Assembly (NCBI GenBank): GCA_964035575.1
Contig: OZ037905.1
Coordinates: forward strand, 645,001-709,000
Source: Rhynchopus sp. YZ270_cl-10
Lineage: Eukaryota > Euglenozoa > Diplonemea > Diplonemida > Diplonemidae
Length of the DNA stretch: 64,000 bases
Reading direction: 5' to 3'
How positions within the stretch are numbered: the stretch's first letter is position 1; the number at the start of each line of letters is the position of its first letter. Positions 2,599-58,893 of this stretch are shown here, one piece after another. The position numbers and the translations under genes are program-made. Under the pieces are notes generated by a model, which had not been told where the DNA came from, made no database searches, and was given only the letters and a program-made list of their open reading frames with translations.

Positions 2599-2635
2599 GA
2601 TGAATGTGCTCGTGCACACACGCACACATCGCATC
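2599..2635 (+). repeat. H1-architecture hairpin
   Basis: GATG at the left arm and CATC at the right arm enclose the perfect stem TGTGC/GCACA with loop TCGT. Confidence 0.45.
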
Positions 2636-3459
2636 GCTACAAAACAGTATTACGCCCATGTTATTTCAAACACATCGTTGCCAAAAAAAAAAAGAAAACA
2701 GTTTTGAATAAAGACGGATTCCCTCAGAAGGGCATTTTTAAAAAATAAAATAACATAGAAACTGACGTCAGGATATGGTAAATAAGGGGGAAAAGGGAGG
2801 AGGGGGTTTTGTTTGTCGCACCGCAAAGCCTGTTGTATTTTGTTTTTCCCTCTGTAGTATGGTGTTCATCGTGATGTGAAAAAAGGCAAATAAAAAGCTA
2901 GCGGGCACTGTCAGTTTCTTCTATTTCCCTGTTTGCCAAAAACTAGGTATTTTAAAAAAAAAATGGTCGTTCACTTTAATAAAAAATGCTGGGTAGCAGG
3001 GTACCCGAATACTTTCGCGGAAAACAAAAAAGAGAAAAAAAAAGAATGCAATAACACAACAAAAGACAGTCAGACGACTGGAGCGTCCGTTGTATTATCG
3101 ATTGGTGTCGTGCGATAGCAGGAGGAGTGAAGTGATTGGAGGAAAAAAAAAACAATTTTGTGTCTTTTTTTGTGTTATGTTCGATTTTGTCTAAGTGTAT
3201 ATTGCTTTGTATGTATTTTGCTAATAACGTACGAGAGTGGCAAAAAAAAAGGGGGAGTTTGGAAAAAAAAGGGGGAAAGGGTGATGCTCCGGAGGGGGTC
3301 GATATTGACAGGTCGCTGACAGGTCGTTAAAAGATTTCCGATAGCACCAGGGAAGGGGAGAAAAAACACAGAGGAAAACTGGGTTGCGTACACGCCCAGG
3401 GGAAAAAAACCCCCCGTTTGGTGGAATAAACAGTAAAAAGAAAGAAACGAAAACTGCCA

Positions 3460-3489
3460 GATGAATGTGCCTCTCGTGCGCACAGCATC
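3460..3489 (+). repeat. H1-architecture hairpin
   Basis: GATGAA and GCATC arms enclose TGTGC, the loop CTCTCGT and GCGCACA. It has the same loop as canonical H1 copies but a different, still complementary stem. Confidence 0.5.
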
Positions 3490-4434
3490 GTTACCGTTAT
3501 CGTTTGTCGTGCGGGAATACGCTGGGCTTGAAGTTTTTTTTTTCAAATGCGAGATGCACGCTTCAGTGCTCAGTCACTAAAAAGGTGACCTTCAAATAAC
3601 AAAGCCCCTGACATTGTATTCAGACAAAACAAATAAAAAATTTAGGTGGATGTGCAGTGCTGTGTACATACACGGGCATATTTTTTACACAATGGGGGAT
3701 CGCGAAAGAAACAACAATAAATGGTTCAGAAAGGCAAAGAAATGGGGGTACAAAATAAAAACCCCCATACCCCCCATTTTTGACCCCTGGGCAAAACTGA
3801 TAGCTGATGAACACACATTTCCTCCCCTTGAGGAAAGAGAATACGAGGTGATAAGGGTTGCTTAATCTTTCGAATACGCAGCCAAAAAAAAAAAAAAAAA
3901 AAAAAGAGAGAGAGAGACGGGTAATGGGAAGGTGGATTTTGTTTTGGCGCAAATAAAAAGTGAGGGGAAATTTGATTGTGTTATCAAGATCTGTCTTAAC
4001 CCTTTTCTTTGTATGGTTTCTTATCAAAAAAAAAAAAACATTTCATAAAATGAGAAAGAACAACGTGAAAAGATTGAAAACGGGGCACAACTTTCGTGGT
4101 ATATATTTTAAAAAAAGAACGCTTAGTCACCTTGAAACACCTCAAATGAAATAAGTAGCCCTACACACCCGATAGAAAAAGAAATCACGATTCTAAAAAA
4201 AAGGCTCAAAAAAAAAGGGAGAGGTAATCATACTCAAAACTGCTCAATAAACCTAACAATGGGGGAAAACGGAAAAAGGACAGTACAGAAAAACGAAGCG
4301 AAATTTTGGGTGGTGGTGGTGGTGGAGAGGGTGAGAGGGTGACCCTGAGGAAAATAGAGGGGGTTTTTTTTTTAGTTTATGATCTGTGGCTTTTTTTACA
4401 GTTTGCAATATCCTTTTCATTTTTTTTTTTTTTT

Positions 4435-4485
4435 TTGAAAATTTGGTTGTATCAGTGTAGCCACCCTAGAGTGTGCTCCACTATA
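4435..4485 (+). repeat. H3 hairpin copy
   Basis: Reads GAAAATTTGGTTGTATCAG after a T run, then AGTGTAGCCACC and GTGTGCTCCACTA. Outer arms AGTGTAG/CTCCACT pair. Confidence 0.5.
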
Positions 4486-6334
4486 CTAAACATTTTTACG
4501 TCACCGCAGACGATGATCGCTCTTTCTCTGTCTTTTTTTTTTCTTCTTTTTCTTGTATCGACAATTGCCGAAGTACCACACCATGGTGGGTAACTAGCGG
4601 TCCGTCCTCAATGTTGGACGAAGCCCACAGAAAGGGGGGGAGTTATGACTCAAATATTGGGTGATAACGCGGGCAAAAAAAAAAAGCAAACAAAAGAGGG
4701 GAAGTGGATCTATTCCAACAAAAAAGATATACGCGAGGAAACAAAAACAAAATAAAAATGAATAACTGCGCCTTGCAGGTGCGGTACATAAGAAAAAGAG
4801 AAAAATGTGCCCATCCTCCATCCTCAGGGCAGACGGATATGAAATAAGAAAAGCGAGCCAATCCGATTCGACACTTCATTGACATGCACACCCCGATTGG
4901 GGGGAAAAAAGGATGGATTTTTTTGTTTTTTTTTGCGGCCTGATCCAGACCAGTTTGGTATTTTATTTTCTAGGGGAAACGACAATGTGGACTCTAAAAA
5001 TGTGGATTACGACAATGTGGATTAATAATCCACATTGTCGCATAATCCACATTGTCGTAATCCACATTGTCGCAAAAAATAATCCACATTGTCGCATAAT
5101 CCGGATTCTTGATTTTTTGCCTTCTAAGGTGAGCCTCTGTAATAACTAGACTCTCGAAAATTTTTTTGGTCGCATCCTAAAAGTGCCCAATTTTGCAATT
5201 AAAGCCAGAATTGAGCAGTTTTGAGCCTCTCTGGGGGTCTAAAACGCGTTTTTGCGGGTTTTTTCCACCAAAACACCAGTAATCCACCTTGTCACATAAT
5301 CCGGATTATTGTCGGTAATCCGGATTATTGACTATTTTTGCCTTCTAAGGTGAGCCTCTGTAATAACTAGACTCTCGAAAATTTTTTTGGTCACATCCTA
5401 AAAGTGCCCAATTTTGCAATTCCAGCCAGAATTGAGCAGTTTTGAGCCTCCTACTGGGTACCCAGAGAAGGCACCTTGACAGCAGCGAAGGCGCAAGACA
5501 AGGTATGTAAATATGTTTAACTTTCTGGTGAATATTCAACAAAATAAGGCCGTCGACTCGTATTTCCTCCAAGAGTCTCCAGAACAATATTTTACACCCC
5601 GCCAACTTATTTTTTTAAGAAGTCACCTTCTTTAATTTCCCCACCACTCACAAATTCACTTTTAAACAGGTATCGCAATGAGTGCAACGTCGAGAGTGCA
5701 GAACGAGCGAACATATGGGTAGAAAGGGGGGTGGGAACACTCTGTCGCAGTCACTGCTATTGCCATTAACCCAGGGAGCATAGCTAGTGCAAGAAATTCG
5801 ACTTTGGAAACCTTCCGGAAAGTCTGTCCTCTACTTACGGAGGACTAGACGCAAGAAAATATTGTTTGTTCCCCCAGAAAACCAGTGCACAATTCACACT
5901 CCTTGTGGGTGGTCTTGTTGCCTTTTCGTCATAGTAATTTTGGCCCAGGCATGCTCTTGAAGCATGACAATTTAGTGTGTATGGGGCAGGGTGTTGTTTT
6001 GTTCTGAATTCTCTTTGTTATAACATCTAAGTCAATCGCGGGTGGTGGTTTGTGTAGCGTGAGGCACTCTTTTTAGCAAACTTCCTGCGGCTGCTAAAGT
6101 GTTATTTCTTCGGATTTAACAACGTACAGCGTAACATAGTGGTTTAGCCTGGTCGACACAACCTTTGATAGATACGGGATAACCAACCCCCTTCGACCCC
6201 TCGTGGGTTCACTGAACAAGCCCTAGTGGTAGTTAAACGCGATTGACATTTACATTTCTTAGAGATGAAAGAACAAGATAACACTTCTGTACCCGCGCAT
6301 CAAAATTGTGGAAAACTTTGCACCCCAAACACCC

Positions 6335-6906: not shown

Positions 6907-7043
6907 TGTTCCTGGGTACCTGGACCTGGACCTGGTACCTGGGTACCTGGGTACCTGGGTACCTGGGTACCTGGGTACCTGGGTACCTGGGTACCTGGGT
7001 ACCTGGGTACCTGGGTACCTGGGTACCTGGGTACCTGGGTACC
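6907..7043. repeat. (GGGTACCT)n array, 8-bp unit
   Basis: About 14 near-perfect copies of an 8-bp unit with the palindromic core GGTACC, at one border of the shared cargo. Because 8 is not a multiple of 3 and the unit has no stop in any frame, long spurious ORFs cross it on both strands. Confidence 0.9.
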
Positions 7044-10128: not shown

Positions 10129-10165
10129 TAAGATGAACCTAAGCCTCTCTGTGCTTAGTCATCTT
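10129..10165 (+). repeat. H1 hairpin, best-paired copy
   Basis: AAGATGA (10130-10136) pairs perfectly with TCATCTT (10159-10165). The inner stem CTAAGC/GCTTAG is also perfect, and the loop is CTCTCTGT. Confidence 0.75.
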
Positions 10166-10956: not shown

Positions 10957-11472
10957 AGTACACACAGTATACACAGTATACACAGTATACACAGTATACA
11001 CAGTATACACAGTATACACAGTATACACAGTATACACAGTATACACAGTATACACAGTATACACAGTATACACAGTATACACAGTATACACAGTATACAC
11101 AGTATACACAGTATACACAGTATACACAGTATACACAGTATACACAGTATACACAGTATACACAGTATACACAGTATACACAGTATACACAGTATACACA
11201 GTATACACAGTATACACAGTATACACAGTATACACAGTATACACAGTATACACAGTATACACAGTATACACAGTATACACAGTATACACAGTATACACAG
11301 TATACACAGTATACACAGTATACACAGTATACACAGTATACACAGTATACACAGTATACACAGTATACACAGTATACACAGTATACACAGTATACACAGT
11401 ATACACAGTATACACAGTATACACAGTATACACAGTATACACAGTATACACAGTATACACAGCACACACAGT
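10957..11472. repeat. (GTATACACA)n minisatellite, about 57 copies
   Basis: An almost perfect array of a 9-bp unit; only the last units (GCACACACA) deviate. The unit has no stop codon in most frames on either strand, so several long artificial frames (HSI, QYT, VYT, CIL repeats) arise; none is likely to be a gene. The homogeneity implies recent expansion. Confidence 0.95.
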
Positions 11473-11493
11473 ACCCAAAAAAAGAAAAAACGT

Positions 11494-11560: not shown

Positions 11561-11830
11561 ACAAACCCTAAAACGCTCCAGTACGGTGTAAAAATGTAGC
11601 TTTCACGCTTGCGAAGCAACGAAAAGTGATGCCGCAAGCAAAAAAAAAAAATGGGCACAGCCCTGGACGGTGCAGGATTTGTTTGTCAATTTTTTTCCCC
11701 CCCAAAACTCTTGCTTTTGAGAGTTTCGGCCATTTTCACCACACGTACCGCGTTTCCTCCCCTGATTTTATTTTAGACCACACATACCGCCAGGCTATAG
11801 GAGGGGTGGGGGGAAAGTAGCCTGGCTTAG

Positions 11831-11864
11831 TAAGATGAACCTAAGCCTCTCGTCTTAGTCACCT
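11831..11864 (+). repeat. H1 hairpin copy
   Basis: TAAGATGAACCTAAGC, CTCTCGT, CTTAGTCACCT: canonical H1 with a shortened right inner arm. Confidence 0.6.
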
Positions 11865-12718
11865 AAAAAAAAAATGAGGTTTTTTTTTTTTGTAAAAAAA
11901 GCAGCACTGTGGAGGATGAAGTAATGTTGAAGGGGGAAAACAGTTGGCCTTCTTTTATGCAAGAAACGCCTGTCGGACACAAAATGAGGGGGATTCAAAT
12001 ATTTTTTTTTTCTGTCTCGCTGTGGCGGAAGATGCAAGGAAAGGGGGGTTTGCAGCTGGTTTGCAATATCATTTGAGTGATAACAACGCGTGGGTATGTA
12101 CATTTTGCATTACAGTAGGACAATGGTAATATTGTCGACCAAAAAAAAGTCACGACAAGAAAACCCCAAAAATCCGCCAATATTATTTCGCCAAGTTTCT
12201 TGTCCTACAGTAGCCTATCATATCCACTCTGGTGACACACCCCTTCCCCTCCCCCTTTTTAGACATAGCTATTTTCTTTTTTTGGTTGGGGAATTCGTGT
12301 AATTGCGTGCACTCAAACCCCACTTTCCTGGTACTTCATTATTATTGCTTTGTTTTTGCTTCCGCCTAGAGGGAGACGAGACAGATTCATTGCCATTTTG
12401 TTTCTAAGAAATATGATACAGGGTGGGTTGAGATGAGGTGTACGTTCTTAATGACCCCCTTTTTTTTGCTTTGCATTTTCAGTCGCTGAAAAGTACAACT
12501 CACTTTACCAAAAGGGGGGAATTTAAAAAGCTGGGGGGGTTGGAAAAAGAGGGGGGTAAACTTATCATAATAAAACCCCCAAAGATGACAGGACCTCTTG
12601 AAAACCTTGAGCAAAAAATACGTTGTGTGCAGCAAAAAAGCAGCCTAACAAAATACACTTTTCGCCAATCAGGCTAACATGCTGCTAAACGCTAAGATCG
12701 GTGTTTTTTTTTTTTTTT

Positions 12719-12765: not shown

Positions 12766-13283
12766 TATTTTTTTATTACTTCTCTGAACCAATAACCGAC
12801 CGTTTTGTTTTTGCCCTTTGCAGTGGTGAGATTACGAATGCAATATTTAAAAATAAAATAAAATTATAAAATGAACCTAAGCATTGCTTTGGTTTACCTA
12901 ACGAACGAGGTAGCTGCGGATAGGGGGGGAAAATGTGTCAATAAAGAATTTTTGGTCTGACTTCTAATATAAGCACCCAAGGGGGGCGAAGAAGATACTT
13001 CAGAATCAAAATATAAAATAATATCAAAATAAAAAAAAAAAAGTAACAATAGGCGTTTGGCAAAAAATGAAACCACAAAGCTCATGAGTCACCTTAAACC
13101 TTAAAAATTTGGAACGGAGTTTTGAAAGAAGGGGGTTTTTTTGTGGGAGTTGAAAAAAAAACATGCATTTTACCTCTGCTGGCTTCAGGTGCTCAGATTT
13201 CCCGACAAAGCAGATACACGATAGTATTTTTAAAAAAATATAAAAAAAGAGGAAATAAAAAACAAATAATGTTTGGTATACGA

Positions 13284-13314
13284 TACCTTAAACTCTCTCT
13301 GTGCTTAGTCACCT
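13284..13314 (+). repeat. H1 hairpin copy, diverged
   Basis: Reads TACCTTAAACTCTCTCTG and ends GTGCTTAGTCACCT. Only the right arm and loop are well kept. Confidence 0.45.
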
Positions 13315-15550: not shown

Positions 15551-15765
15551 GTTTATAAGATGAATCTACACGGCGGGGTTGTGTCACATGTGACACTGTC
15601 ACCGTCACACTGTCACAAGTCGTGTGACAGTGTCACACAGGTTTCTGAGAGGGTCACGGTGACACCCTCACAACATGTTGCATAGCATTGAAAGTTGCAC
15701 ACCCTCAGCTGTGTAACAGGTGTTCCACAGCCCCACCGTTTAAGCATCTCATGCTAAGTCACCTT
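15551..15765 (+). repeat. H1 hairpin interrupted by a MITE
   Basis: The left part, GTTTATAAGATGAATCTA, ends at 15568. The right part, TAAGCATCTCATGCTAAGTC then ACCTT, resumes at 15741. Removing 15569-15742 restores an ordinary H1 copy. Confidence 0.7.
15569..15740. mobile_element. 172-bp MITE inside an H1 hairpin
   Basis: Ends CGGCGGGGTTGTG and CACAGCCCCACCG are inverted repeats with two mismatches. TA occurs at 15567-15568 and 15741-15742, consistent with a TA target duplication. The interior is rich in GTGTCAC/GTGACAC palindromes. No coding capacity. Confidence 0.65.
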
Positions 15766-16757
15766 TAAACAAAAAATCATGACATTGTCCTTGACCTTTA
15801 TCTTGACCGCTTCTTGCGCCAAAGCGTCAAAGCGTCAAAACGGCCAACCATCCAATACTTTCTTTTTTTTTTGCCCGAACTCCTATCTGACCGACGGAAG
15901 AACAGCACACAACAGACTGTTGACAGATGAATATGGTAAGTTATCAAACAGTCTTTGTGCTCTACTTGTCTTTTCAAAAACTAAAACCTTGACCTATCGA
16001 CACAAAGTTAAAAACGACTTGGCTTCTCTGTTTTTTTCGTTGCTTTTTATTTTGGGGTGTAGTCTCACATGATAGCGCATTTCTGATACAGTCTCCCTCA
16101 TCGACTCCAGAAGACCCCAGAAACACATGCCTGCAGACCGCTCACTCACACACAAAAAAAAACAGAGAATCAACAAAACAGGTGGCATAAAATAGGAACT
16201 CTGATAGGTAAGTAAAAGGGGAAAAAAAAGGTTTTTTAGTTGATTGCACAATTCCCCTGTTGGAGGGGTGATTGGCGAACCGTATCTGAGGAACTATTTC
16301 TCCTTTAAGCTACGCTTGTAGGTATTTAAAAAAAAAAAAAAGTCTCAAAATTAAAGTAAAGGGGTTTGTCATAGATACAGAATGCGCATTCTCTAGCTAT
16401 GGTTTGTTTGTTTTGTTTTTTTGTTTTTGCTACTCTGTTTGTTTTGTTTTGTATTTCATTGTACTTTGTAAGTTGATCTCAAAGTATTAAAGTAAACGGG
16501 GGGTGGTGAGTCATGAAGTGAAAAGTCAAAAAAAATAAAAATAACGCGGTGATGTTTATGTAATAAGGGGAAAGAAGGGGGAGGGGGGAGAGAGAGGGAG
16601 AGGGAGAGGGGGGGGTTCGAAAATATAAAAAAAGGGGACAAAAAAAAAAATGCGAAACATGGAACAGCACATATTTCATAATAATAATAAAAGGGGAGGG
16701 GGGGAGTTTCAAGGGGAGTGAATAACGTTTTCTGGATTTTTTTGTTTTTTTTTTTTT

Positions 16758-19021: not shown

Positions 19022-19062
19022 ATAACATTTAAGAGGACCCGAATCCTCTACTTAGTCACCTT
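19022..19062 (+). repeat. H1-tail hairpin with a replaced stem
   Basis: Stem AGAGGA/TCCTCT (19032-19037 with 19044-19049), loop CCCGAA, then the conserved H1 tail ACTTAGTCACCTT. It lies about 200 bp beyond the predicted end of the Gln-rich gene. Confidence 0.6.
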
Positions 19063-19265
19063 ATGTCGAAACGGTGCTCCGGTATTGATAAGCCATGTAT
19101 AGGAGTACGTGACCCACACCGCGAAGGAACGCGGGCAATCAATCAGCGCGGGGAAAACGCGAAAGGTGCGGATGACCGGCAACGGACTGGAGGATCCTAT
19201 GTGCTTCGACGACCGCACCGTCACGACGCCAAAGGTGGCCACTGGCCACAAATTAAACAAACGTT

Positions 19266-24418: not shown

Positions 24419-24532
24419 AATTTCTTTCCGGCCGATTTTTTTCTTTCTTTTGGGAAAGAAAATCGCCACGTACCACGGCTAGTTAGCTACAAGTATGCCG
24501 CAATGTAAAAAAAAAAAAAAAAAAAAAGAAAA

Positions 24533-24573
24533 GTTTATAAGATGATCCTAAGCCTCTCGTGCTCAGTCACCTT
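24533..24573 (+). repeat. H1 hairpin directly behind the LINE
   Basis: GTTTATAAGATGATCCTAAG, CCTCTCGTG, CTCAGTCACCTT. It begins 11 bp past the ORF2 stop (TAA, 24584-24586) in LINE orientation and is followed by a TTTTC-T-run, as in H1 copies at 40751 and 58854. Confidence 0.75.
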
Positions 24574-24583
24574 ATCATATTCG

Positions 24584-27500
24584 TTATCGCACAGCTTCAG
24601 CTGCGCTGGCTTCTACAAGTTTGTTGTCAGGGATGATGTCATTTCCCCAGCCGGAGTTCGTAATTTTGGCACGTACGATGACGTGTTCGAGCATGTGCAT
24701 AGTGTAGCGCGGGTACGTAAAAACTGGGCGACGGTCGTAGCCAATAAGTCCGGGTGCGCCAATGGACCGGAGGCCCCGTGAGGAGGAGATGGCAGATGCA
24801 GGAAATGGGTTTTGAATCCCAAGGGCTTTGCACAGGCGGTGAAGCTTGTTGAGCAATGTGCGCAAGGCGGCGGCCCGTTCTCTAATGTTAGAGGTTGGCC
24901 GGAGAACGTAGATCCTGTGGAAAATTTCCAGGTCAATGGCAAGTTCCACGCATGTCACAGGCAGGTTGGCGGTGCTCCATTTCAGGGAGGAGGCCCATAG
25001 GAGCATTTGCTTCAGTTCGCGGCGCTTCTGCTTGCATCTCGGATCATCGTCCTTCCCAAAGAAAGGGGCGAGCTGCCGGTAGATGGCCTCCTGGTATGGG
25101 GGCGCATCGAACACTTCAAAGTCCATACGCCATGGGTGGCGTGCAGGCGCTGTGGTCGTCCGCGAGGACAGGTGATCATCTACTGCGGTGGTGACGTCCA
25201 GCAGGTATCTCTGCATGTCGGTTACTACGTGCTTGGGCGTGTTCGTGGGAGCTATGCCATGCATAGCCAGGCAACTCGGGGTGTTCGGGCCGATCCTGTC
25301 GAGGAGAGGGCGGTGCGCTTCCTTCACGTTAGCAGACACAGTGTGCGGGCAAGTCCACAGCAGGTGCTTCGCCAGCCCGGAGGTTGGTGTGAGGCATAAG
25401 GGGCACTGATTCACTTCGAGGTGTATGCCACCTCTCTTTGTTGACTCGTATAGGCACAGCACCGTAGGGTGCGCGTAGAGTATCCCATCGCAGATGATAC
25501 GTCGGAGGCGGTAAGCTAGCAGGGGGTGGGACCACTGCAGTTGGTCGTGCAGGTACGTGGTGTCGGCGAGGTTGACACCGTATTGAGCGCCGTCGTAAGT
25601 CGGTCTGTCCAAGGCAAGATCTGTGAACTTCTGTCGTCGGACGATTTCGCGAATGGCGTGGTGTCGTTCACCTGGCGCGAGAAGACCTAGGGCGTGTGTC
25701 TTCTCTTCTTCCACGGGGGCACTCGAGAGCTCCGTAACGGTTGTTAGGTCGTCACACCATCTCACGCCTGTCAGTATGCTAGTGGAGGTCATGTTGCCGA
25801 CCGGCCCGTGGGGGCGGAAGTCCCAGCCTCCTCCTGCGTTGTACCTCTTGTGTATCGACAGGCATCGTTCTCTCAGTGTTGCGTCAAATGCTATGTGGTC
25901 AAGCACGACGTTCATGGACCGGTTGCAGATGATGGCAGCCGGGTCAGTGCGGTGGCTCTTCAATAAAACGGTGCGTATTGCGAGGCCTGCGCGTGTCCCA
26001 TAGTCACTGCCCCAGAGGCAGGTGTTGACGGCGGTGGAGAGTTCCTTCAAGCTAGACTGCGAGGGCAGAGCGTACGGGACCTCATACAGCGCACCCGGGA
26101 GGATGCATTCTGACACAATTCTATACTTGTGGTAGAAAGCCAGCGGCATACATCGTAGGCGTTGCAGGGCTGCAATGGCCTTGCGGACTCGTTCCGGAGA
26201 GGAGCGTCGAGAGTGCTTCGAGCAGTAGAGGTAGACCCCTAGGATCTTGACCTTCACCAGTGTTTTGTACCTGTGACCTGTGTTCGAGACAAGAGTGCTG
26301 GTGAAGCTCTCACGTGATCCAAATGCAACGGTTTTGGTGTCGTTAAGTTTCATTCCGGTGATGGCACAAAACCTCTCCACAATGCGCAGGCATGGCTCTA
26401 AGCTGTTCATCGACTTCCGTGACAGGAGGGTGATGTCGTCCGCGTACGCACGTGAGCAGGTGTTCTTGCAGCTGTCCAGGTCCTTCAGCAGCACTGCGAC
26501 GAGCGCATTAATCAAGACGACGCTGATGGGGCATCCTTGGAGGATGCCGTTCGTCACTCTGAACGGGGTACCCACGCCAAGTGGAAGCTGGAACCTACGT
26601 TGAAGTTGCTCGTACATGGTGCGGAGCGGCTGCAGAATGCGGGGGTGTAGCCCTAGTCGTGCTGCGAGCTCGAGGGTAAGCTTCTGGGGGACACGGTCAA
26701 AGCACTTAGCAAAGTCAAGTGCCAGGCCGTACAGCGGTTCTCCGCCAGACAGTGCGTCTTCCAGCTGCGTGCAGATGTCGAACAGGACGTTGTGAGCCCC
26801 GTGGCGAGGGCGGAAGCCGTGTTGGTCCTTGTGAACCCAGGTTTCTTGCCACTTCTGGATACTACGTACTCGTGCTGACGCCCAGAGTCTGTAGACACTG
26901 CTCGTCACGGTGATCGGGCGGTGGTCCAGCGGGTCCTTTCCCTCTCCCTTTGGTATGAGAGTCACGATCGCAGTGAGCAACGCTTCAGGCCACGTGCCGG
27001 ATTCTTCGATCTCGTTGAACGTTTTGGCAAACGCATTCAGCAGGACCACAGGAAGGCGCTTCAGCTCACCCATGCGCCACCCATCGACACCACATGCGCC
27101 TGACTTCTTCTTACTCTGCAGAACGCGGTCCAGGTCCTCCCCAGTGAGAGGGAGCAAATCCATGTTGTGCTTCGCTACATGTTTCCCAAACACAGCATCA
27201 AAGTCGTCATACTCCGGTTCAGGGCACTCGCGGTAGAGCTGGAATACAGATTTCCACTCTTCCTGGAGGATGGCATCCATCTCTTGTGCGTTGGCCGTCA
27301 GGGTCCCGTCTCTTCTAGCCACAGCCAGCAGATCGTCCGGCAGGGTACCCCTGCAGAAGGCCGTGAGCTTCTTCCGGTCCACGTCGAAGTTGTGCACCGC
27401 CTTCAGCTTCAGTTGCTTTTCCCTGTAGACTCGATTGTCCCTGCCCAGGTCACTCGCCAGTGTCGCAGAGGAAGTGTGGAGGTCCGCTGCTAGCGTCAGC

Positions 27501-28972
27501 TGCTCTGCTATGCCCAGGGGAAGTTCGTCCACAGACAGGTCACGCACACGCAGTTCCTTGCATTTCCGGAGTGTCGATGCCCACAGGCAGTAGGTCTTGT
27601 GCTCCATCACGGTGAACCCCCCATTCGCCAGTCTCTTTAGTTGAATCTGGAGCTCCAGAGACATATTCGCCAGGCGGGCCAGCTCCACCTGTCGAGGGGG
27701 TGCTGCACCTGTCGAGTATTTCGTCGTCGGGGCTGCGATCGTTTTCTGCACCGGCTGCCTCACCTCACCACGGCCACGGTGGCCACGATTCGTGGGGATG
27801 CCATCGTCTCTCGCACACAGAAGTAGGTACTCCTCACTAGCCTGCGACACCGCATTCCACATGTCATGTACGTCCAGACGTGCTTCAGCTTCGTGGAAGC
27901 CCTTCGCAGCCAGGAGAGCGGCGCATTGTGCTGATCTCTGCACACTCAGGTCAGGCTTCACCATCGACAGATCCTTCGGCACAACAAATCGGTAGACTAG
28001 TTGTGTGAAGGCGGCAAGAGAGAGCTCCACAGTGACAGCGCTGTGCTGCGGTACTCCCACGTGGTGCGTCGTACACCTGGACAAAGCAGCGGCCGCCACC
28101 TCATTCAGCAGTACGTGGTCAATCCGCGTACCTTCAGAGTCGCGTCGCATGAAGGTTGGAGGAGGGACACAACCGAGCCTTTGGGCCTGCACCACAGCAG
28201 CGTCAGTCCACCCAGACTTCACCGCTTCCCGCAGAATGTACGACGCAGAGACAGAGGTGTTCAGGTCACCGCACACAACCACCGGCACGTCCTTCCCTAG
28301 TGCATTAGGCATGGTGTTGAGGACGCAGTGCAGAAGTTTCTCGCGATCCTTCTTCCTCCCTCCTTTAGAGCCTGAGTGAGCGTACACGTTGAAGATATAC
28401 AGGAACACGCCTCCCGCCCCCAGGGCCAGACGCGTGAGCTGTATCCTGTCGTGGAACAAGTTGATGTCGGTCAACGTGTTGTCATGGAATGCGCTCGAGG
28501 GTCTGCGCACTAGTGTGGCTACACCGCCCCTCTCCGCAATGGTGGGGTGGCGGATACCTGCAAGCATGTATCCAGGCTGCGGTCTGCCCCATAATGGCTT
28601 CCAGACAGGCGGGAGGTCGGTTTCCATCCTGCGGGCACCTTCTTCCGTCAGCTTCACTTCCTGCAGGCAAAGCACTGTGCTGTTCAACGCAAGCGTGCAG
28701 GCAGCGTGGTTCGCGTATGATGTTACGTTGCAGGTGGTGACTGTTATGCAGCCTTCGCTTGCAGGTGGTACGGCAGACAAAGGTGGTCCTGTGCTGGCGG
28801 CAGCGGTGCGCTGTTTCTTCGCTGCTGGTGGGCCGGCTGTGCGGTTGTTGTGCGTACCGGTCTTGCCAGATGGCTTGGCTTTCTTGGGTCCGGGGTGTGG
28901 GTGAACGCTACCGGATGTGACAAGTCGCTGCTGATTCGTAGTTGACACGTGTTTAACGTGTTGCGGCTCAAG
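24584..28972 (-). CDS. LINE ORF2: APE endonuclease, reverse transcriptase, zinc knuckle
   Basis: About 1,460 residues that would nick target DNA and prime reverse transcription of the element RNA. Counting from the GTG codon at 28948, the order is: basic Pro/Lys-rich leader with a 2A-like HPHPGP (16-21); APE endonuclease (about 70-310) with CLQEVKL, the GDLN motif near 224, RIDHVLL near 277 and HSAVTVEL near 304; reverse transcriptase with LIPKGEGKDPLDHRP, ALDFAKCFD (about 744), LQGCPIS and AYADDITLL (about 834); then CPLCLTP...HLLWTCPH near 1180-1205, a CCHC-type zinc knuckle. There is no ATG before the endonuclease. The first in-frame Met (about residue 106) falls after the catalytic Glu motif. 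The frame is continuous with ORF1 across one UGA, so read-through or reinitiation is likely. Confidence 0.92.
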   Translation of the reverse strand, partial: LEPQHVKHVSTTNQQRLVTSGSVHPHPGPKKAKPSGKTGTHNNRTAGPPAAKKQRTAAASTGPPLSAVPPASEGCITVTTCNVTSYANHAACTLALNSTVLCLQEVKLTEEGARRMETDLPPVWKPLWGRPQPGYMLAGIRHPTIAERGGVATLVRRPSSAFHDNTLTDINLFHDRIQLTRLALGAGGVFLYIFNVYAHSGSKGGRKKDREKLLHCVLNTMPNALGKDVPVVVCGDLNTSVSASYILREAVKSGWTDAAVVQAQRLGCVPPPTFMRRDSEGTRIDHVLLNEVAAAALSRCTTHHVGVPQHSAVTVELSLAAFTQLVYRFVVPKDLSMVKPDLSVQRSAQCAALLAAKGFHEAEARLDVHDMWNAVSQASEEYLLLCARDDGIPTNRGHRGRGEVRQPVQKTIAAPTTKYSTGAAPPRQVELARLANMSLELQIQLKRLANGGFTVMEHKTYCLWASTLRKCKELRVRDLSVDELPLGIAEQLTLAADLHTSSATLASDLGRDNRVYREKQLKLKAVHNFDVDRKKLTAFCRGTLPDDLLAVARRDGTLTANAQEMDAILQEEWKSVFQLYRECPEPEYDDFDAVFGKHVAKHNMDLLPLTGEDLDRVLQSKKKSGACGVDGWRMGELKRLPVVLLNAFAKTFNEIEESGTWPEALLTAIVTLIPKGEGKDPLDHRPITVTSSVYRLWASARVRSIQKWQETWVHKDQHGFRPRHGAHNVLFDICTQLEDALSGGEPLYGLALDFAKCFDRVPQKLTLELAARLGLHPRILQPLRTMYEQLQRRFQLPLGVGTPFRVTNGILQGCPISVVLINALVAVLLKDLDSCKNTCSRAYADDITLLSRKSMNSLEPCLRIVERFCAITGMKLNDTKTVAFGSRESFTSTLVSNTGHRYKTLVKVKILGVYLYCSKHSRRSSPERVRKAIAALQRLRCMPLAFYHKYRIVSECILPGALYEVPYALPSQSSLKELSTAVNTCLWGSDYGTRAGLAIRTVLLKSHRTDPAAIICNRSMNVVLDHIAFDATLRERCLSIHKRYNAGGGWDFRPHGPVGNMTSTSILTGVRWCDDLTTVTELSSAPVEEEKTHALGLLAPGERHHAIREIVRRQKFTDLALDRPTYDGAQYGVNLADTTYLHDQLQWSHPLLAYRLRRIICDGILYAHPTVLCLYESTKRGGIHLEVNQCPLCLTPTSGLAKHLLWTCPHTVSANVKEAHRPLLDRIGPNTPSCLAMHGIAPTNTPKHVVTDMQRYLLDVTTAVDDHLSSRTTTAPARHPWRMDFEVFDAPPYQEAIYRQLAPFFGKDDDPRCKQKRRELKQMLLWASSLKWSTANLPVTCVELAIDLEIFHRIYVLRPTSNIRERAAALRTLLNKLHRLCKALGIQNPFPASAISSSRGLRSIGAPGLIGYDRRPVFTYPRYTMHMLEHVIVRAKITNSGWGNDIIPDNKLVEASAAEAVR

Positions 28973-30898: not shown

Positions 30899-31446
30899 TT
30901 TGTGATGCCGATATGTGTCGGGGGGGAAGAACTCCTAGTGACCCTTCACAAGCCGCACCACGTAGGGGGGGGTTGACAAACACCAAGGCGGCAGGGGCGG
31001 GGGGGGAGGGGAAACCAAGGTGCCAGGGTGGGGGGTGGGGGGCGGGGGTAGGGGACGGGGGGAGTGATTGTCAGAGGGGGGTTACGTAGCGAGACCAATG
31101 AAGTACAGTACAATGAAGTACAGCAAAAAAAGATGGGTTTTGTCAGGCCTGTTTCTAAATCCGGTCCCCGTCCCCAGATTTGGGAAAATAAATTTTTTTC
31201 CCGCACTTTTTTTCCCGCCGTCTCTACTGCGTTTTAGGGGTTCACAGGGGCTCAGAGGAGCCCGAGAAAAAATACCACGTGTCTGGATGAGACCGCTCAT
31301 GCAAAATAACCAGTTTTTGGGGGAGGGAAAAAAAAGGGGGGGAGGGGTGCCGAATCCAGAACGGCCCCCCACCATCACCAAGTCCCCCTGTGGTTGAACG
31401 GGAGTACCTTGGGGAAGTGGGTTGCTGACCGCACCATCCAGGCTGT

Positions 31447-35099: not shown

Positions 35100-35893
35100 A
35101 CGAATGCCTAAGGACCCGCATTGGGGAACCTAGGGGTCTGTACTCAATATTGGCCAAAGCCTTTTTTGTACGGAAGGAAAAGACGTCAAGTCGTCCTGAA
35201 CCCTTGAGAGCAACTTTTATGAAAACCCCTTTCACCAGACAAAGATTTCTCGCGAGTGTAAAACACTCCGGTACTTCCTGTCGCAAGGGGGTTGTTTGTA
35301 GTCTACGGGGGGGTTTTTTTGCCGCCCTTGTGGTAAAAAATGAAGTACGCAGTACTCTACCCTCGTACAAAAAAAAACAAAATCGCGCATGATAAAGAAT
35401 TTGCATTGTTTCTGTGCAAACAAGGGAGTGTGAAAAAAAGGGCTAGGAACTACTTTGGGACACTGACGTATTTTTTTTCCCCCCTTTTTTGAAGAAAAAT
35501 AAAATATGTCAGCGTTACTACAGATTCTACTTTTTGGAAAGGAAAATTTTTTGTTTTGTGCGTAAGGCGTGTAGTAAATATTCTGTTGATATTTTTTATT
35601 ACTGCAATACGCTCCCACTGACTGGCTGTGAAGAGGAAATCTCTTTGAGGCCAAAAAAGTTGACTTGAAATACAGTCCTCGTGACTGAGTGTACCTTTGG
35701 TACATGACTGGTGCCCCGTGGGAAGACCAACCATGCAGTCCTCCAAAAAACGGAAAGGGCTGAATACCTGAATGGCATTAGGAAAGAGATGTGGGCTGAT
35801 GCGCACTGAAACAGCCTTCTTCTACACGAAAGATACAAAATAATCTAAAGCTGCCAAATTTGTATCAACAAAAGGCGGCAAAAAAAAAAAACA
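33791..35893. other. Gene-free interval
   Basis: No supported gene. Includes a CTCCCCCT/AGGGGGGAG palindrome near 34019-34038, a run of 30 or more T near 35066-35098 and an H2 copy at 35663-35722. Frames at 34521-34895 and 35232-35705 are not supported by domains or splice signals. Confidence 0.45.
35663..35722 (+). repeat. H2 repeat copy
   Basis: CTTGAAATACAGTCCTCGTG, ACTGAGTGTACC, TTTGGTACATGACTGGTG. Two stems are visible: CAGTC/GACTG with loop CTCGT, and GTACC/GGTAC with loop TTT. Confidence 0.6.
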
Positions 35894-37878: not shown

Positions 37879-38461
37879 TTTATTTTCTTTTGAATTGCCT
37901 CTGAGCTACGTCAATGATGACACACAGAGCAAACAATCCTGCTGACCAACGGCCAAAATTATCCAAGTTGACTTGAAATACAAAGCCCTCTCGTGACAGT
38001 ATACCATTTTAAAAAAAAAACTGTAAAGAGCACAAAGTGTTTCCATTCCGAATAACTACGTCAATAGACAGCACTGCACAATACATTTTTGTTTTCCACT
38101 GTAACCTACTATGCAGGATGTGTTTTTTTGTTTGTTTTTAAAAACACGTGAAAAAAAAAAATTGATAAGATGAACGCTCTGATTGCTTCACCAGCTGTAA
38201 AAGAGCTATACTTGTTTTTTTTTTTTGACATAACCTCTCAACCACCTCCGTTTTTTTGTTTTTTGAAAACTTGGAAAAATCACGTGTCGCAACAGAATAT
38301 ATCCACGCCACGCCCACCCTCCGCCCAGCTTACTTCCATTTCGCGGTCTACGTTGAGATGTCCTACTCCCGCTACCGCTCGTCAGTCAACGAAACGGGTA
38401 TAATTGGAACACAAGGGAGCAACTCTTTGTGTGAAGTAAGTGGGTTTTTTTTTTTTAAATT
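37879..38461. other. Spacer downstream of the bestrophin-like gene
   Basis: Contains a partial H2 copy at 37971-38012 and an H1-like arm (ATAAGATGAACGCTCTGATT) at 38165-38184. No gene seen. Confidence 0.5.
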
Positions 38462-40277: not shown

Positions 40278-40750
40278 CCCTCAGGTTTTTCTTTTTGTAG
40301 TTGCACTGTTGTTGCTTTGGGTGAGAAGAAGAGAGAGAAAGGAAAAATAACATAAAAATAAAATGAAAGCTCAACTATAAGATCCGCACCCAAGACGCAT
40401 GTCTGGGCCACAACCATTTTTTTGTTGACTATTTTCTTGAAAAATATACATTCATCATTTTTTTTGTTTCTTTCCCCATCTCTCGCATCCCCATCCCCTC
40501 TTAAATTTTTTTTTTTTGCCTTAACGTTGTGAGACACCCCGACCACGTTTAATTTTTCAAAAAGGTGAATTCCCCCCTCTGTTTTTTGTTATATTTTTTT
40601 GAAAGTTTTATTGCATCCACACATCACCAGTCTGAAGACGGGTTTTTGCACACATTTTTTTTTTCCCTCTTTTAAGCCCCCCCCTATTAACCACAACATT
40701 CCTCCTCATTTCTTGTTTCTTCTTTTTGCAAACTTCATGCAAACAAAAAA

Positions 40751-40790
40751 GTTTATAAGATGACTCTAAGCATCTCGTGCTTAGTCACCT
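40751..40790 (+). repeat. H1 hairpin copy, downstream of OST1
   Basis: GTTTATAAGATGACTCTAAG, CATCTCGTG, CTTAGTCACCT. CTAAGC/GCTTAG inner stem. It lies about 300 bp past the OST1 stop and, read on the OST1 strand, is followed by a T run. Confidence 0.7.
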
Positions 40791-41085
40791 CAAAAAAAAG
40801 GTACACACACACACACACACACACACCGTCCCTTTTTTCCATATCACCCTCGAGAGGGGAGGGGACACACAACACGTTCACAATCCATCCTCCTCCTCTC
40901 ACTGAGAGCGCAAAACAAAAGAAACACTTTTTTTAAAAATCTACAAAAGACCCCTTCTCTTTCCTCTTTTTTTTGTTGTTATCCTTTTTTTCCAAACTAC
41001 CCCCATAAATCCTATACGTTTGTTCGGTTACCCTCCTTTTTTTGTTTGTTTCTTCTTCCTCATCTCCTAAAAAAATAAACTAAAA

Positions 41086-48163: not shown

Positions 48164-48356
48164 TGTTTCATCTGCAACACTTTGGAAAATCTACCCTTTG
48201 TCTTATCCAAGCAATTGACGAACTCTTGAAAACAACTATGCTTCAGTGTGTAAACCCCTGGACAGTTTAATGTCTTATTTAAGACCCAAAAGAGAGAGAC
48301 ATCGGAAAGAGGTAAGAGAATGATAGCCTCAGGCGATCACCTTCAAATAAAAATTT

Positions 48357-48417
48357 GGCTTGAAATACAACAGCCCTCATGAACAGTGTACCTTTGGTAC
48401 ATGACCGGTGTATCGGG
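48357..48417 (+). repeat. H2 repeat copy
   Basis: GGCTTGAAATACAACAGCCC, TCATGAACAGTGTACC, TTTGGTACATGACCGGTG; stem GTACC/GGTAC. Confidence 0.6.
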
Positions 48418-51609: not shown

Positions 51610-51717
51610 TGTACCTGGGTACCTGGGTACCTGGGTACCTGGGTACCTGGGTACCTGGGTACCTGGGTACCTGGGTACCTGGGTACCTGGGTACCTGGGT
51701 ACCTGGGTACCTGGGTA
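51610..51717. repeat. (GGGTACCT)n array, 8-bp unit
   Basis: About 13 units, the same repeat as at 6907-7043 and at the same border of the shared cargo. Element B has only two or three units at the equivalent place (13738-13763). Confidence 0.9.
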
Positions 51718-52588: not shown

Positions 52589-52814
52589 TACTACGGTTTG
52601 TCTAGGCTGAGTCGTGAATTTCTACGAAACTGTGTAGCTCGCAAAAAAAAAAAAATGAATAAAAATACATAAATTAGAATAGAAAAATTGAATTTTGATA
52701 ATGTGCAGGCACCTCGAGGTGGGTGATAGGGGGAAAATGTGGGCTTCATTGGTTGATGGATAGACAGGAACATGTCCTGCCACTGCTGGGTGAACAAAAA
52801 TAAAAGGGGGTTAG

Positions 52815-52843
52815 AAGATGACTATGCCTCATGCATACATCTT
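52815..52843 (+). repeat. H1-architecture hairpin with a different stem
   Basis: AAGATG/CATCTT outer stem and TATGC/GCATA inner stem, both perfect, loop CTCAT. Confidence 0.6.
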
Positions 52844-53676
52844 CACGGGGAAAAACAAAGAATGACGGTGGAGCTTGCACAGGTGGCAACTACACTATTC
52901 CAACAATTTTTCAAAAAAAAAAAAAAAAAAAAAAAAATAGAAACTTAACACTCATCGATAAAAACCCCCATAAAAGAGAGGTTATGGTGAAACGCACACA
53001 CCTCGACCTGTTTGGTGAGGAGGTGGCTCTGCAGCGCGGTTTGTCCCCCAAAACCGCAAAAAGGGTGTGTTCAAACATGATTTTGTTTCTATTTTCCTTC
53101 ATTTCATGAGGTGACAAAAAAAATAATGAACCCCACACACCCATGGAACGAGCATCCACCAAGCCTCCATTCTCACCAGAACGAACACCATCCCTTCTTT
53201 TTTTTTGGAGACTTGGAGACAAATCACCACCAAACAAAAAATAACCCCCCCACCTTTTTTTGCGAAAAGTTGCCATTTTTGCAAAAAATAAATCCCCTTT
53301 CTGGTGGGAAGACATGCCACATTGTTTCTCTTCCATCTGGGGGGTGGGGGGACATTGAAACATCACTCTTCTACGTGAAAAAAAAAATGGGAGAGAAAAA
53401 ACAGAAACCAGAGCGCCCAGAGAAAAAACGAACAACAAAAGATACACATACAGAAAAGAAAAGAAACGGTGATGGAAGACTGAGGGTTATGGGTACGGGT
53501 GTGATAGGCAAGCGAAGCAGAGCAGAAGGTAGGTTTTGTGGTCTTCGGGGGAAGAAACACGGGATGGGGTTTTTGGGATTGAGGGGGTTGGAAATATGGG
53601 GGTGGGAAAAGTTGTAAGATAAACCTCAGCAGGACGTAGTCCATAAAGATGCACCTTTCAAAAAAACCAAATTTGA

Positions 53677-53714
53677 AATTGAAATACAAAGCCCTCTCGT
53701 GGCAATGTACCCTC
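53677..53714 (+). repeat. H2 repeat, left half
   Basis: TTGAAATACAAAGCCCTCTC, GTGGCAATGTACCC. The right half is missing. Confidence 0.45.
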
Positions 53715-53730
53715 ACAACAAAGAAAGCTT

Positions 53731-53764
53731 TGTACAATGAACACCTCTCGTGTTCATACATCTT
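53731..53764 (+). repeat. H1-architecture hairpin with a different stem
   Basis: ATGAACAC/GTGTTCAT is a perfect 8-bp stem with loop CTCTC, then ACATCTT. The ACGAGAGG loop word (reverse strand) is conserved with canonical H1. Confidence 0.65.
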
Positions 53765-53980
53765 TGAAGAAAAAAAAAAGCAAAATGCAACCCGGAGGGT
53801 CGCTGAGTTCTTATTATATTGTGGTATCGATCAATCACCCTCCTCGAGGCCACGTTCTGTCCGAATGTTTACCCAAAAAAAAATTGACTACAGTGGCTTT
53901 TGATGCAGGCACACACACCCCCTGACCGACCCATGCACGATGCCATCCGGATACGATAGATGAAAGCACAAAAGACTTGA

Positions 53981-54032
53981 AATACGAAAAATCTCTCTAC
54001 CTTGGTACAAGACCGGTGCACCGTGGGGGAAG
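53981..54032 (+). repeat. H2 repeat copy
   Basis: CTTGAAATACGAAAAATCTC, CTTGGTACAAGACCGGTGC, ACCGTGGGG. Confidence 0.5.
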
Positions 54033-54818: not shown

Positions 54819-54843
54819 AAAAAAAAAGGAAAACGTTGACAAA

Positions 54844-54876
54844 ATAATCCTAAACCTCTCCTTGCTTAGTTATCTT
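54844..54876 (+). repeat. H1 hairpin copy
   Basis: ATAATCCTAAACCTCTCC, TTGCTTAGTTATCTT; diverged. Confidence 0.5.
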
Positions 54877-55412
54877 CAAAAAAAAAAGGGGCAAGATGAT
54901 ACTATTTTCGTCACCTTGAAGAACAAAGAAAAAAAATGAGTAGGGTGGGGGCGTGGGGGGGGTGACACTTTGTTTCCTTACGCAGAAACAATGTGTATTA
55001 AATTTTGAGGAAAAAAAATATGCAGCAAAGGCAGAAAAACTTCGTGCAGGCATTTTTTTTTGGAGATCAAATATAAATCAGCCAACACTTTACAGCAGTC
55101 TTTTCAGTGCCCAAGAAAAGGCTCCCTTCTTTTGGTATTGCCAGAACCATCTTATCCTTTCAGGAGACGGTAGCGTCAGCTTTGGAGCACAGTAACCCTT
55201 TGTTGAGAACCACTCCGATGTGAAGTCATCAGAGATCCCATGAGGGTGTCCTTTCCATTGGAAAGGGGGGGCGTAAGGGGATGGGTGGTGAGAGGTAGGT
55301 CCTAAGGAGGGACCTTTTGAATAAGGAGGATCAATAAGTCGAAGGACAATGTGCAATTTTTTTTTTTTGTATGAAACACGGTGAGGAAGAGAAAAAAAAA
55401 AAAGAATAATTT

Positions 55413-56345: not shown

Positions 56346-56360
56346 AGTGTATGAAAATAG

Positions 56361-56403
56361 AAGTTTATAGGATTAACCGAAGTCTTACGTGATTAGCCAC
56401 CTT
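56361..56403 (+). repeat. H1 hairpin copy, diverged
   Basis: AGTTTATAGGATTAACCGAAG ... TTAGCCACCTT; arms recognisable, stem weak. Confidence 0.35.
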
Positions 56404-57181
56404 GATCACACTCGAAATCGAAAGAAAAACCCCCACACACCATGAAATTTGGGTCAAAAGTACTCTTGATTTTTAAAACCACCCCAGGAAAGACGAAGCA
56501 CGTTCCTTGTTTTTTTTTTTCCTCCTCCCCTCGCTGAACGAAGGGAAGAAAAAAAGACATAGAGAGAAAGGTTGTTGGGAACCTGGCCTTAGCTTGGTCA
56601 CCAAAATATGTGGGGGAGGGTGTGTTAAGGCTTTTTTTATTTCTATTTCGCGCAAAAAAGGTGGGCATTTTTATTTAGTTGGGGAAATACAAAGATGATG
56701 CTGGTTTCTTTAATTTTTTATCTATTTTTCTTTTTTTTCTTTTTCTTTTTTGTGTCCAGTTTTCGTTTCTACGCTTTGGTGTTGGGAAATATCCGATATT
56801 GTACGAGCGTTATCATTTCACGGACAAGACCTGGGCTGCGAAGAAGGAAAATGCAACAAAACGCACTTCTGGTCTCTCGGGAAACGAGGACAGTCAGGAA
56901 CGGCCTTAACAGGATGATATGCGGTGTAAGTTCTGCTATTGCGTGTGGGTTTAAAAAAAAAAACACACATTGCCACACACAGTACCATGTACACCTGCTG
57001 ACCCTAAAGGTTTGGTTTTGGGGGGGGTGTGGCAACAACAAACAGCCTCCTCGAGGAAATGGCTTCTTTATTTGCACACACCCATAAGGGTTCTCTTGTT
57101 GGTTGCTTCGTTCAACATATTCGGTGCGTTGTGTTTCGTATTCAAAAAAAAGGGGGTAATTGCAAAAAATAAAAGAAAAGT

Positions 57182-57204
57182 GGATAAGATGTCTTAGTCA
57201 CCTT
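57182..57204 (+). repeat. H1 arms without a stem
   Basis: GGATAAGATG directly joined to TCTTAGTCACCTT, as if the central hairpin had been lost. Confidence 0.45.
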
Positions 57205-57494
57205 AAATCTTTTGTTAAAGAAATGAAACGAGGCTAAGAATAAAATAAAATGTCAAAAAAAAAAAAGGGTGCAAACCTGGGAGGCAGGCACAAAAGGAAC
57301 AGTGTGTCCTATGAGAGGTTTTTGTTATGTGTTTGGCTGTTCCGCATTTTGAGGGGGGAGAAGACTTGTTTTGTCTCTAAAGGGTGGGTAAGATGGCGTT
57401 CCTGTGTCTGTTCACAAAACGCTAATCGCTCCACTTCCTGGTCCGTACAAGTAATGTCACGCAATACCGTAGCCATAAAGCAATTAAGATTTTT

Positions 57495-57523: not shown

Positions 57524-57525
<2 letters not shown>

Positions 57526-57932
57526 CAAGTAATTGCTATCGGAAAAAAAAATGGGGTGTGCTGTGGTTATGGGGGGACCCACACTCCTGAACACCGCCCT
57601 GTAGAAATAATCTACACTCTGCTCTTCTGCAGGTATGCGAAAACGCTGCCACAACCACTGGGACGCCTGCACTTGAAACGTTCAAGAACGGGGGCTGTCA
57701 TCCTCAGACCCCTCTTCGTCCAGCACCATTTGCTCGATGGATGGTCGGCGTGTTCCAGCTCGTTGTCGTCCACAGCCTCCCACGCATCGTCGCCGGAGGA
57801 GGAGTGTGCAAGGAACACAGACGACTAACTGTCGTCGATCACACCATGCGCATCAGTACCACCCAGCAAAGAAAAAAATCGCACAGAGTTTCCCACAGCA
57901 CACCTCGCTTTTTTTCCTAGCAATTCCTTGTT
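57524..57932. mobile_element. 409-bp inverted-repeat element, copy 2
   Basis: Same ends as 32241-32726 (AACAAGTAATTGCTATCGG, and TAGCAATTCCTTGTTTTGTT at the right). Shorter interior; the ORF is reduced (57612-57818, minus). A long A run abuts the left end. Confidence 0.7.
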
Positions 57933-58029
57933 TTGTTGTTGTTGTTTTCCACACACCTTCCTTCAACCCTTGTAGGATCAGTTGCTATTTTTTTCTAGAA
58001 AACTTGAAATTACACATTTCAAGAGAACA

Positions 58030-58823
58030 AATTAAAAAGGGTCCTTATTTGCGTTTTTGGGCTCCGCCCGTGCAGTGGTGGGGTCAATCTCGAAAATTGG
58101 ACAATTTTTTGACCACTTAAATTTTGAGAAATATGAGCCCGGTTGCTTATACGTGGGGCCCATTTTCGGCTAAAATTTTCCTCAAAATCTGGTTTTGTAA
58201 AATTGACCCTTTACTCCCCCCCCACATCGATTTCAATACTATACCTTACTTCACCTACGGTTACCCTTACAGGGGGGGTGAAGGAAGGTAAGTTGAAAAG
58301 GGTCCTTATTTGCGTTTTTGGGCTCCGCCCGTGCAGTGGTGGGGTCAATCTCGAAAATTGGACAATTTTTTGACCACTTAAATTTTGAGAAATATGAGCC
58401 CGGTTGCTTATACGTGGGGCCCATTTTCGGCTAAAATTTTCCTCAAAATCTGGTTTTGTAAAATTGACCCTTTACCCCCCCCCCCACATCGATTTCAATA
58501 CTATACCTTACTTCACCTACGGTTACCCTTACAGGGGGGGTGAAGGAAGGTAAGTTGAAAAAGGGTCCTTATTTGCGTTTTTGGGCTCCGCCCGTGCAGT
58601 GGTGGGGTCAATCTCGAAAATTGGACAATTTTTTGACCACTTAAATTTTGAGAAATATGAGCCCGGTTGCTTATACGTGGGGCCCATTTTCGGCTAAAAT
58701 TTTCCTCAAAATCTGGTTTTGTAAAATTGACCCTTTACTCCCCCCCCACATCGATTTCAATACTATACCTTACTTCACCTACGGTTACCCTTACAGGGGG
58801 GGTGAAGGAAGGTAAGTTGAAAA
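58030..58823 (+). repeat. Satellite-like tandem array, about 264-bp unit, three copies
   Basis: The unit starts GGTCCTTATTTGCGTTTTTG and ends GGTGAAGGAAGGTAAGTTG. Three copies are almost identical to each other. The first half is homologous to the 32822-33790 unit, while the second half is different, so each array homogenised separately. Confidence 0.92.
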
Positions 58824-58853
58824 AAAAAATTAGGGGGGTGCTAAAAAAGAAAA

Positions 58854-58893
58854 GCTTATAAGATGAACCTAAGCCTCTCGTGCTTGGTCACCT
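58854..58893 (+). repeat. H1 hairpin copy
   Basis: GCTTATAAGATGAACCTAAG, CCTCTCGTG, CTTGGTCACCTT; preceded by AAAAGAAAA as at 24533. Confidence 0.7.

Follow-up and report, generated by a model that had tools for sequence, protein, structure and literature searches.

Dispersed hairpins in Rhynchopus as the probable 3' tails of a LINE system with near-absolute sense orientation

Systems of long and short interspersed nuclear elements (LINEs and SINEs) with a structured 3' tail are a known kind. In the stringent LINEs of zebrafish, the loop of this tail is specific and the stem is exchangeable if the loop is kept, as described in an excerpt of PMC4176376. In Diplonema papillatum, genes are grouped in arrays of uniform direction that comprise from five up to 120 members, according to the part of PMC10161547 available to us. 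Here we describe a 64,000-nucleotide stretch (the window) of the diplonemid Rhynchopus sp. YZ270_cl-10 (assembly GCA_964035575.1, contig OZ037905.1, positions 645,001 to 709,000), in which a first-pass annotation had pointed out dispersed hairpins. Judged from sequence, these are in all likelihood the stem-loops at the RNA 3' ends of a LINE system of the stringent type, made up of an element that we call LINE-H and its short relatives, whose insertion would read the direction of transcription or of the replication fork. The conserved ACGAGAG loop, the very numerous hairpin-only copies and the near-absolute sense orientation along chromosome arms make it a striking variant of the known kind.

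The window contains one LINE-H of 6.6 kb (24526-31095, minus strand), which carries a hairpin of family F1 (see below) as its 3' end. Its parts are as follows (aa, amino acids; ORF, open reading frame).

24526..24573, minus strand: 3'-terminal hairpin and pyrimidine tail (F1), AAGGTGACTGAGCACGAGAGGCTTAGGATCATCTT and ATAAACTTTTCTT; fold computed, present in 23/23 LINE copies
24584..28948, minus strand: ORF2, 1454 aa, apurinic/apyrimidinic (APE)-type endonuclease and reverse transcriptase (RT) (Exo_endo_phos 2.6e-13, RVT_1 1.9e-24)
28973..30898, minus strand: ORF1 candidate, 641 aa, directly upstream of ORF2, no Pfam match
31096..31110, minus strand: spliced-leader remnant (TACTGTACTTCATTG) at the 5' end

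Endonuclease and RT lie together in one ORF2, as in LINEs, and the nearest named relatives of this protein are from D. papillatum (∼45% identity over residues 560-1060). We compared the 3' ends of 23 copies, that of the window and 22 others. All 23 end in the same hairpin, identical bar one A/G site and placed directly after the end of the ORF, and the flanks differ immediately past ATAAACTTTTCT. The hairpin is thus a 3'-terminal stem-loop owned by the element, with a fold more stable than that of shuffled sequences (z −3.77; −12.7 kcal/mol for the LINE hairpin of the window). Some copies are 5' truncated, and LINE-H flanks carry target duplications: flank repeats of the 15 copies that join spliced-leader sequence (see below) score 8.47, against 6.80 in swapped flanks (0/200 swaps reach this value), and the copy on contig C24 has a clear target duplication of 26 nt. 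A site-specific LINE that inserts beside pre-existing hairpins would also give the constant junction between LINE end and hairpin. However, the 23 LINE-side hairpins are nearly uniform whereas the general hairpin population is very diverse, and the C24 duplication lies outside the hairpin; we consider this explanation most improbable.

Of 19 LINE-H 5' regions examined, 15 join spliced-leader sequence, three of them over 37 nt. The full leader at these three ends is CAACGATTTCTAAAGCTACAGTTTCTGTACTTCATTG, which resembles the diplonemid spliced leader; together with the named relatives of the ORF2 protein, it marks the host as probably a diplonemid. The template was therefore a trans-spliced mRNA. 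The spliced-leader motif has 739 copies in the genome (control, 0). Among the ∼100 of these copies that were listed, it forms repeated small arrays, for example on contig C1 at 1.39-1.50 Mb.

The first-pass annotation treated the hairpins as one dispersed set. The set is real, but it splits into three families with the common loop CACGAGAGG. The main form, F1, read on the gene strand as F2 is below, is AAGGTGACTAAG-CACGAGAGG-CTTAGGWTCATCTT followed by ATAAACTTTTCTT, and F1 copies have T-rich surroundings. F2 reads AAGATGTGTGTG-CACGAGAGG-CACATTCATCTT; one of its subfamilies has an A-U in place of a G-C pair, and F2 also folds better than shuffles (z −4.05). F3 shares the loop with F1 and has a different stem; in many copies it is the tail 3' of a SINE-like body with GTAGGACTGCATGGTTGGG or a near variant. 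Besides the end of LINE-H, the family profiles detect these copies in the window:

10130..10165, minus strand: F1 hairpin, named in the first-pass annotation (CTAAGC/GCTTAG)
11830..11867, minus strand: F1 hairpin
13277..13314, minus strand: F1-like copy, weak (15.4 bits)
15741..15768, minus strand: F1-like copy, weak (19.1 bits)
19028..19064, minus strand: F1-like copy with another inner stem, named in the first-pass annotation
40741..40794, minus strand: F1 hairpin
54825..54878, minus strand: F1 copy, degenerate
56353..56406, minus strand: F1 copy, degenerate
57169..57206, minus strand: F1 copy without loop and 3' stem
58843..58898, minus strand: F1 hairpin
2586..2622, minus strand: F2 hairpin (TGTGC/GCACA)
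3443..3493, minus strand: F2 hairpin
52806..52844, minus strand: F2 hairpin (TATGC/GCATA), fold computed
53721..53768, minus strand: F2-like hairpin (ATGAACAC/GTGTTCAT), 11.1 bits, fold computed
2278..2327, minus strand: F3 tail, degenerate
35653..35714, minus strand: F3 (SINE-like) copy, body upstream
37965..38007, minus strand: F3 tail
48347..48411, minus strand: F3 copy
53671..53712, minus strand: F3 tail
53971..54022, minus strand: F3 copy, degenerate
59582..59652, minus strand: F3 (SINE-like) copy, body upstream

All seven hairpins singled out by that annotation are in the window as written, and six are also detected by the profiles (that at 54794 is not). Its common arms, AAGATGA/TCAYCTT, exceed chance, but only part of the set carries them: the strict pattern AAGATGA-N10-35-TCAYCTT has five matches in the window (0.03 expected) at four places, one palindromic place being scored on both strands. 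A looser form of the arms (gap 5-30) gives 2820 and 2801 matches on the two strands of the genome (152 Mb, 126 contigs; the window belongs to contig C73), against 36 and 32 for a reversed control. The functional strand is probably the opposite of the one written in the annotation, since AAGGTGA/TCATCTT pair there via G-U and would face A-C on the written strand. A search of the window against Rfam gave no match at gathering score, and no tRNA gene was found in it. Among the open-licence PMC articles listed in searches that used no loop or stem letters, no title or opening of an abstract mentions such hairpins in a diplonemid.

The orientation of the hairpins came as a surprise, being much stricter than expected. 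All 22 profile hits in the window lie on the minus strand, a tally that is not independent because window copies are among the profile seeds. Bestrophin and ribophorin I, the non-mobile genes of the window with Pfam matches, share the minus strand with the C73 kinases that flank the window. We extended the count to 30 kinase loci and four sampled stretches, which together with the window comprise 201,553 bases and contain 70 merged hits (E<0.1). All 70 are sense, and none lies within the sense ORFs of at least 200 aa (74,250 bases, 37%). Leaving out the window, which was selected by the finding itself, the ratio is 48:0 in 137,553 bases (24:0 for F1 alone), which extrapolates to ∼53,000 hairpins of all families genome-wide; the F1 seeds come from elsewhere, and those of F2 and F3 partly from the kinase and sampled loci. 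Loci chosen by hairpins contain 93 sense (91 distinct) and two antisense merged hits.

For a genome-wide view, kinase and helicase genes served as a ruler of gene direction. At least two ruler genes lie on each of 68 contigs. Of these contigs, 33 show a single minus-to-plus switch and 35 show none; no other pattern occurs. Genes therefore run outward from one switch in all 33 switching contigs, which may not be whole chromosomes. Against this ruler, exact F1 38-mers are 54 sense, 2 antisense and 44 unplaced (100 of 184 matches), F2 is 52, 1 and 47 (100 of 383 matches), the SINE body 47, 8 and 45 (100 of 920 matches) and LINE-H 14, 0 and 13 (27 copies). Tc1 (DDE_3) elements, in contrast, are mixed (24, 23 and 48; 95 copies). 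One Tc1/mariner-type transposase ORF (341 aa) lies in the window at 684-1709. Other LINE families have the following counts (sense, antisense, unplaced).

Family a: 3, 8, 9
Family b: 0, 3, 2
Family c: 1, 1, 4
Family d: 2, 2, 2
Family e: 7, 3, 4
Family i: 3, 1, 4
Family j: 5, 2, 2
Family k: 2, 0, 3
Family l: 2, 0, 8
Family m: 4, 1, 3
Family n: 2, 0, 3
Family o: 1, 2, 5

A general antisense lean of poly(A)-tailed LINEs was considered and dropped: family a fits (3:8), and families d (2:2) and i (3:1), with A-rich ends, do not. Base composition was likewise rejected as the whole cause of the orientation. Outside ORFs and hairpins, the sense:antisense counts are 135:69 for TTTTCTT, 107:94 for T runs of at least 10 and 88:37 for pyrimidine runs of at least 20, and a T-tract or pyrimidine bias of 2 to 2.4 cannot yield 48:0.

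All 11 exceptions (two F1 copies and one F2 copy, all on C2, and eight SINE bodies) fall either into C1 1.28-1.32 Mb or into C2 1.16-1.40 Mb. These two intervals hold no ruler gene, and F1, F2 and SINE bodies agree in orientation there. An unmarked pair of arms is thus likelier than true antisense copies. Once hairpins and SINE bodies are added to the ruler, C1 and C2 each show two outward units, and C3 to C11 show one. The polarity of genes and elements on C1 (2.98 Mb) and C2 is minus-plus-minus-plus, compared with minus-plus on C3-C11; this double polarity could reflect either fused chromosomes or a misjoin.

Orientation might also arise from selection against antisense copies instead of from insertion. 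Antisense signals might disturb the processing of polycistronic mRNA, and the other LINE families pooled lean mildly towards sense (32:23), so that a certain preference for sense is not peculiar to the hairpin. Nevertheless, the exact F1 copies, which are presumably young, are already at 54:2 in the ruler sample (both exceptions on C2), and Tc1 elements and full-length LINEs of other families are found antisense. Selection is therefore unlikely to be the whole cause.

Several observations weigh against a LINE system that inserts by direction, the pooled lean of the other LINEs being one of them. F3 shows no excess of folding over shuffles (z −0.60). Two antisense hits do exist in the hairpin-chosen loci; both are weak, at 13.5 and 11.0 bits, with one of them resembling an unrelated repeat. 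The exceptions on C1 and C2 lie where no ruler gene gives the local direction. As a set, the short copies have no significant target duplications (6.72 vs 6.36, standard deviation 0.20; the top of 20 swaps is 6.86). Finally, no parent element of F2 or F3 came to light. The idea that F2 and F3 are tails of other RT families was dropped when one copy each of eight such families (1.8 kb fetched) showed no such hairpin; the element end is unrecognisable in several of the eight, and five further RT families were not fetched.

The first-pass annotation had proposed compensating stem changes as the sign of a structure that matters. Such changes are seen between families and in the subfamilies of F2, and are weak within F2 and absent within F1. 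In 29 distinct F2 copies of one length class, picked on their outer arms only, 92.0% of cells are paired, against 90.0% in shuffles (2/500 shuffles reach this). Cells changed on both sides number 11, against 5.2 (2/500; 16/5000 with whole-arm swaps), and the covariation score is 0.134, against 0.102 (3/500). Pairs with a double change (113/500) and pair types (270/500) show no excess, and 25 of 52 deviating F2 cells are still paired. In F1, 145 of 162 cells are paired, compared with 142.8 by arm swap (393/5000 reach this); double changes show no excess (1 vs 1.3 by swap), and the 29 deviating cells comprise 12 paired and 17 unpaired. Together, compensation in F2 and loss of pairing in F1 indicate that the sources retained the structure and that the copies drifted afterwards. 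Stem changes no more paired than drift predicts, the outcome that the annotation had set against its own claim, are thus found for single F1 copies and not for the source families. The structure appears to matter in RNA, as the 3' tail that a retrotransposon carries, rather than through a function at the individual dispersed sites, an idea that the drift-like loss of pairing disfavours for F1. The compensation in F2 with a kept loop matches the stem exchange of zebrafish LINEs (same excerpt of PMC4176376).

These results also bear on a further explanation, that the hairpins are cis-regulatory RNA elements of the host (3' untranslated region (UTR) or processing signals) maintained at every site, one of which was captured by the LINE. 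The copies lie outside long ORFs and in sense only, hits at the kinase loci are more frequent in 3' than in 5' flanks (25 and 12), and SIDER2 elements of Leishmania are mainly located in 3'UTRs and reported to be determinants of gene expression (PMC2323293, as far as the consulted part goes). However, the hits are spread broadly, at 36 to 1326 nt from the stop codon of the kinase, and no more than 18 of the 30 kinase loci contain one. Pairing is lost in F1 as drift predicts, loop and stem columns are equally variable by eye, and one hairpin is common to all LINE-H copies checked. We regard host elements as improbable.

Most F1 copies seen consist of the hairpin only (∼48 nt). In front of some hairpins stand the tails of truncated LINE copies, 22 to 106 nt in length. 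A LINE end lies upstream of 11 of 40 close F1 48-mers, a sample drawn mostly from hairpin-pattern loci, hence biased to complete hairpins, and with two copies counted twice. Unbiased loci gave 28 loose matches to the 3' half of F1, 19 of which have the 5' half (the chance rate for such a match is 16%); clear LINE sequence stands upstream of two of the 28, and three more look LINE-like by eye. It is conceivable, and we put it forward tentatively, that a ∼48-nt hairpin RNA is retroposed as a unit of its own and ranks among the smallest retroposons. The LINE machinery might then read the direction of transcription or replication at the target, and tens of thousands of copies might mark the polarity of chromosome arms, with one strand switch per chromosome.

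The LINE system that we favour could work as follows. The LINE-H protein would recognise the loop and whether a stem is present, leaving stems free to change while paired. The RNA ends 3' in pyrimidines (UUUUCUU) and would use this end to prime on T-rich tracts, at their A-rich strand. Synthesis may often stop at the base of the hairpin, or the template may be a small hairpin RNA, either of which would give ∼48-nt copies. Since T tracts are asymmetric by only ∼2:1, direction must also be read when a target is chosen, either that of transcription (an exposed non-template strand, trans-splice tracts) or that of the fork. Once inserted, the copies would drift. Leishmania major is reported to have a single main replication origin per chromosome (in the available section of PMC12890776); if this is valid here, transcription and fork direction coincide and are indistinguishable.

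Two other LINE families show positional patterns of their own. Family f (13 copies with RT E 2.9e-29, one with 1.4e-26) is a candidate switch-region or centromere retroelement. All 12 copies with marks on two sides are flanked by one minus and one plus mark; the marks were hand-picked, and the remaining listed copies (C87, C91) are marked on one side only. The copies in strand-switch intervals occur in both orientations:

C3, 1.156-1.190 Mb: four copies
C12, 1.178-1.208 Mb: two copies
C14, 0.806 Mb: one copy
C36, 0.839-0.893 Mb: four copies
C41, 0.415 Mb: one copy

Family j (frames to ∼3,390 aa) is near contig ends in at least four cases (C34:5622, C77:8626, C83:13816 and C60:1351324 of 1356888) and is less terminal on C24 (1.43-1.45 of 1.65 Mb). 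The window also holds tandem arrays of a 9-mer (×57, 10957-11473), an 18-mer (×59, 23343-24409), a 261-mer (×3, 58034-58824) and the 8-mers CCTGGGTA/GTACCTGG (6911-7043 and 51611-51717).

It is unusual for a retroelement to keep a near-absolute orientation over whole chromosome arms, and this needs explaining. One sense-only LINE/SINE system beside mixed LINEs and Tc1 elements, where genes switch strand once per switching contig, amounts to a natural experiment: does target-primed reverse transcription sense transcription, or does it sense the direction of the fork? The loop-conserved, stem-variable tails are in addition an evolutionary dataset on RNA recognition by LINE proteins.

Conserved ends and a variable paired core recall integron attC sites, as the first-pass annotation remarked; unlike there, the hairpin belongs to a LINE, and the analogy is not needed. 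LINE-H is akin to the LINEs of D. papillatum, its nearest named ORF2 relatives, by protein comparison. With SIDER1 and SIDER2 of Leishmania, the hairpins share abundance, shortness, degeneracy and a place in intergenic DNA or 3'UTRs, and most SIDER2 copies are likewise oriented with their transcription unit (PMC2424063, in part). In contrast to SIDER2 (∼500 bp, with a 79-bp 5' signature), F1 measures ∼48 nt and is defined by its 3' hairpin. A further likeness is to stringent LINEs of the L2 clade (UnaL2, ZfL2-1 and ZfL2-2), in which a 3' stem-loop lies inside the LINE, the loop matters and the stem is exchangeable (PMC4176376, as excerpted). SINE partners have a common tail there; F3, the possible counterpart here, has a SINE-like body and the same loop on another stem. 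Unlike in UnaL2 and ZfL2, the loop of the Rhynchopus system is ACGAGAG, its 3' end consists of pyrimidines, no tail repeat could be seen and the host has a spliced leader; the system also combines many hairpin-only copies with near-absolute sense orientation.

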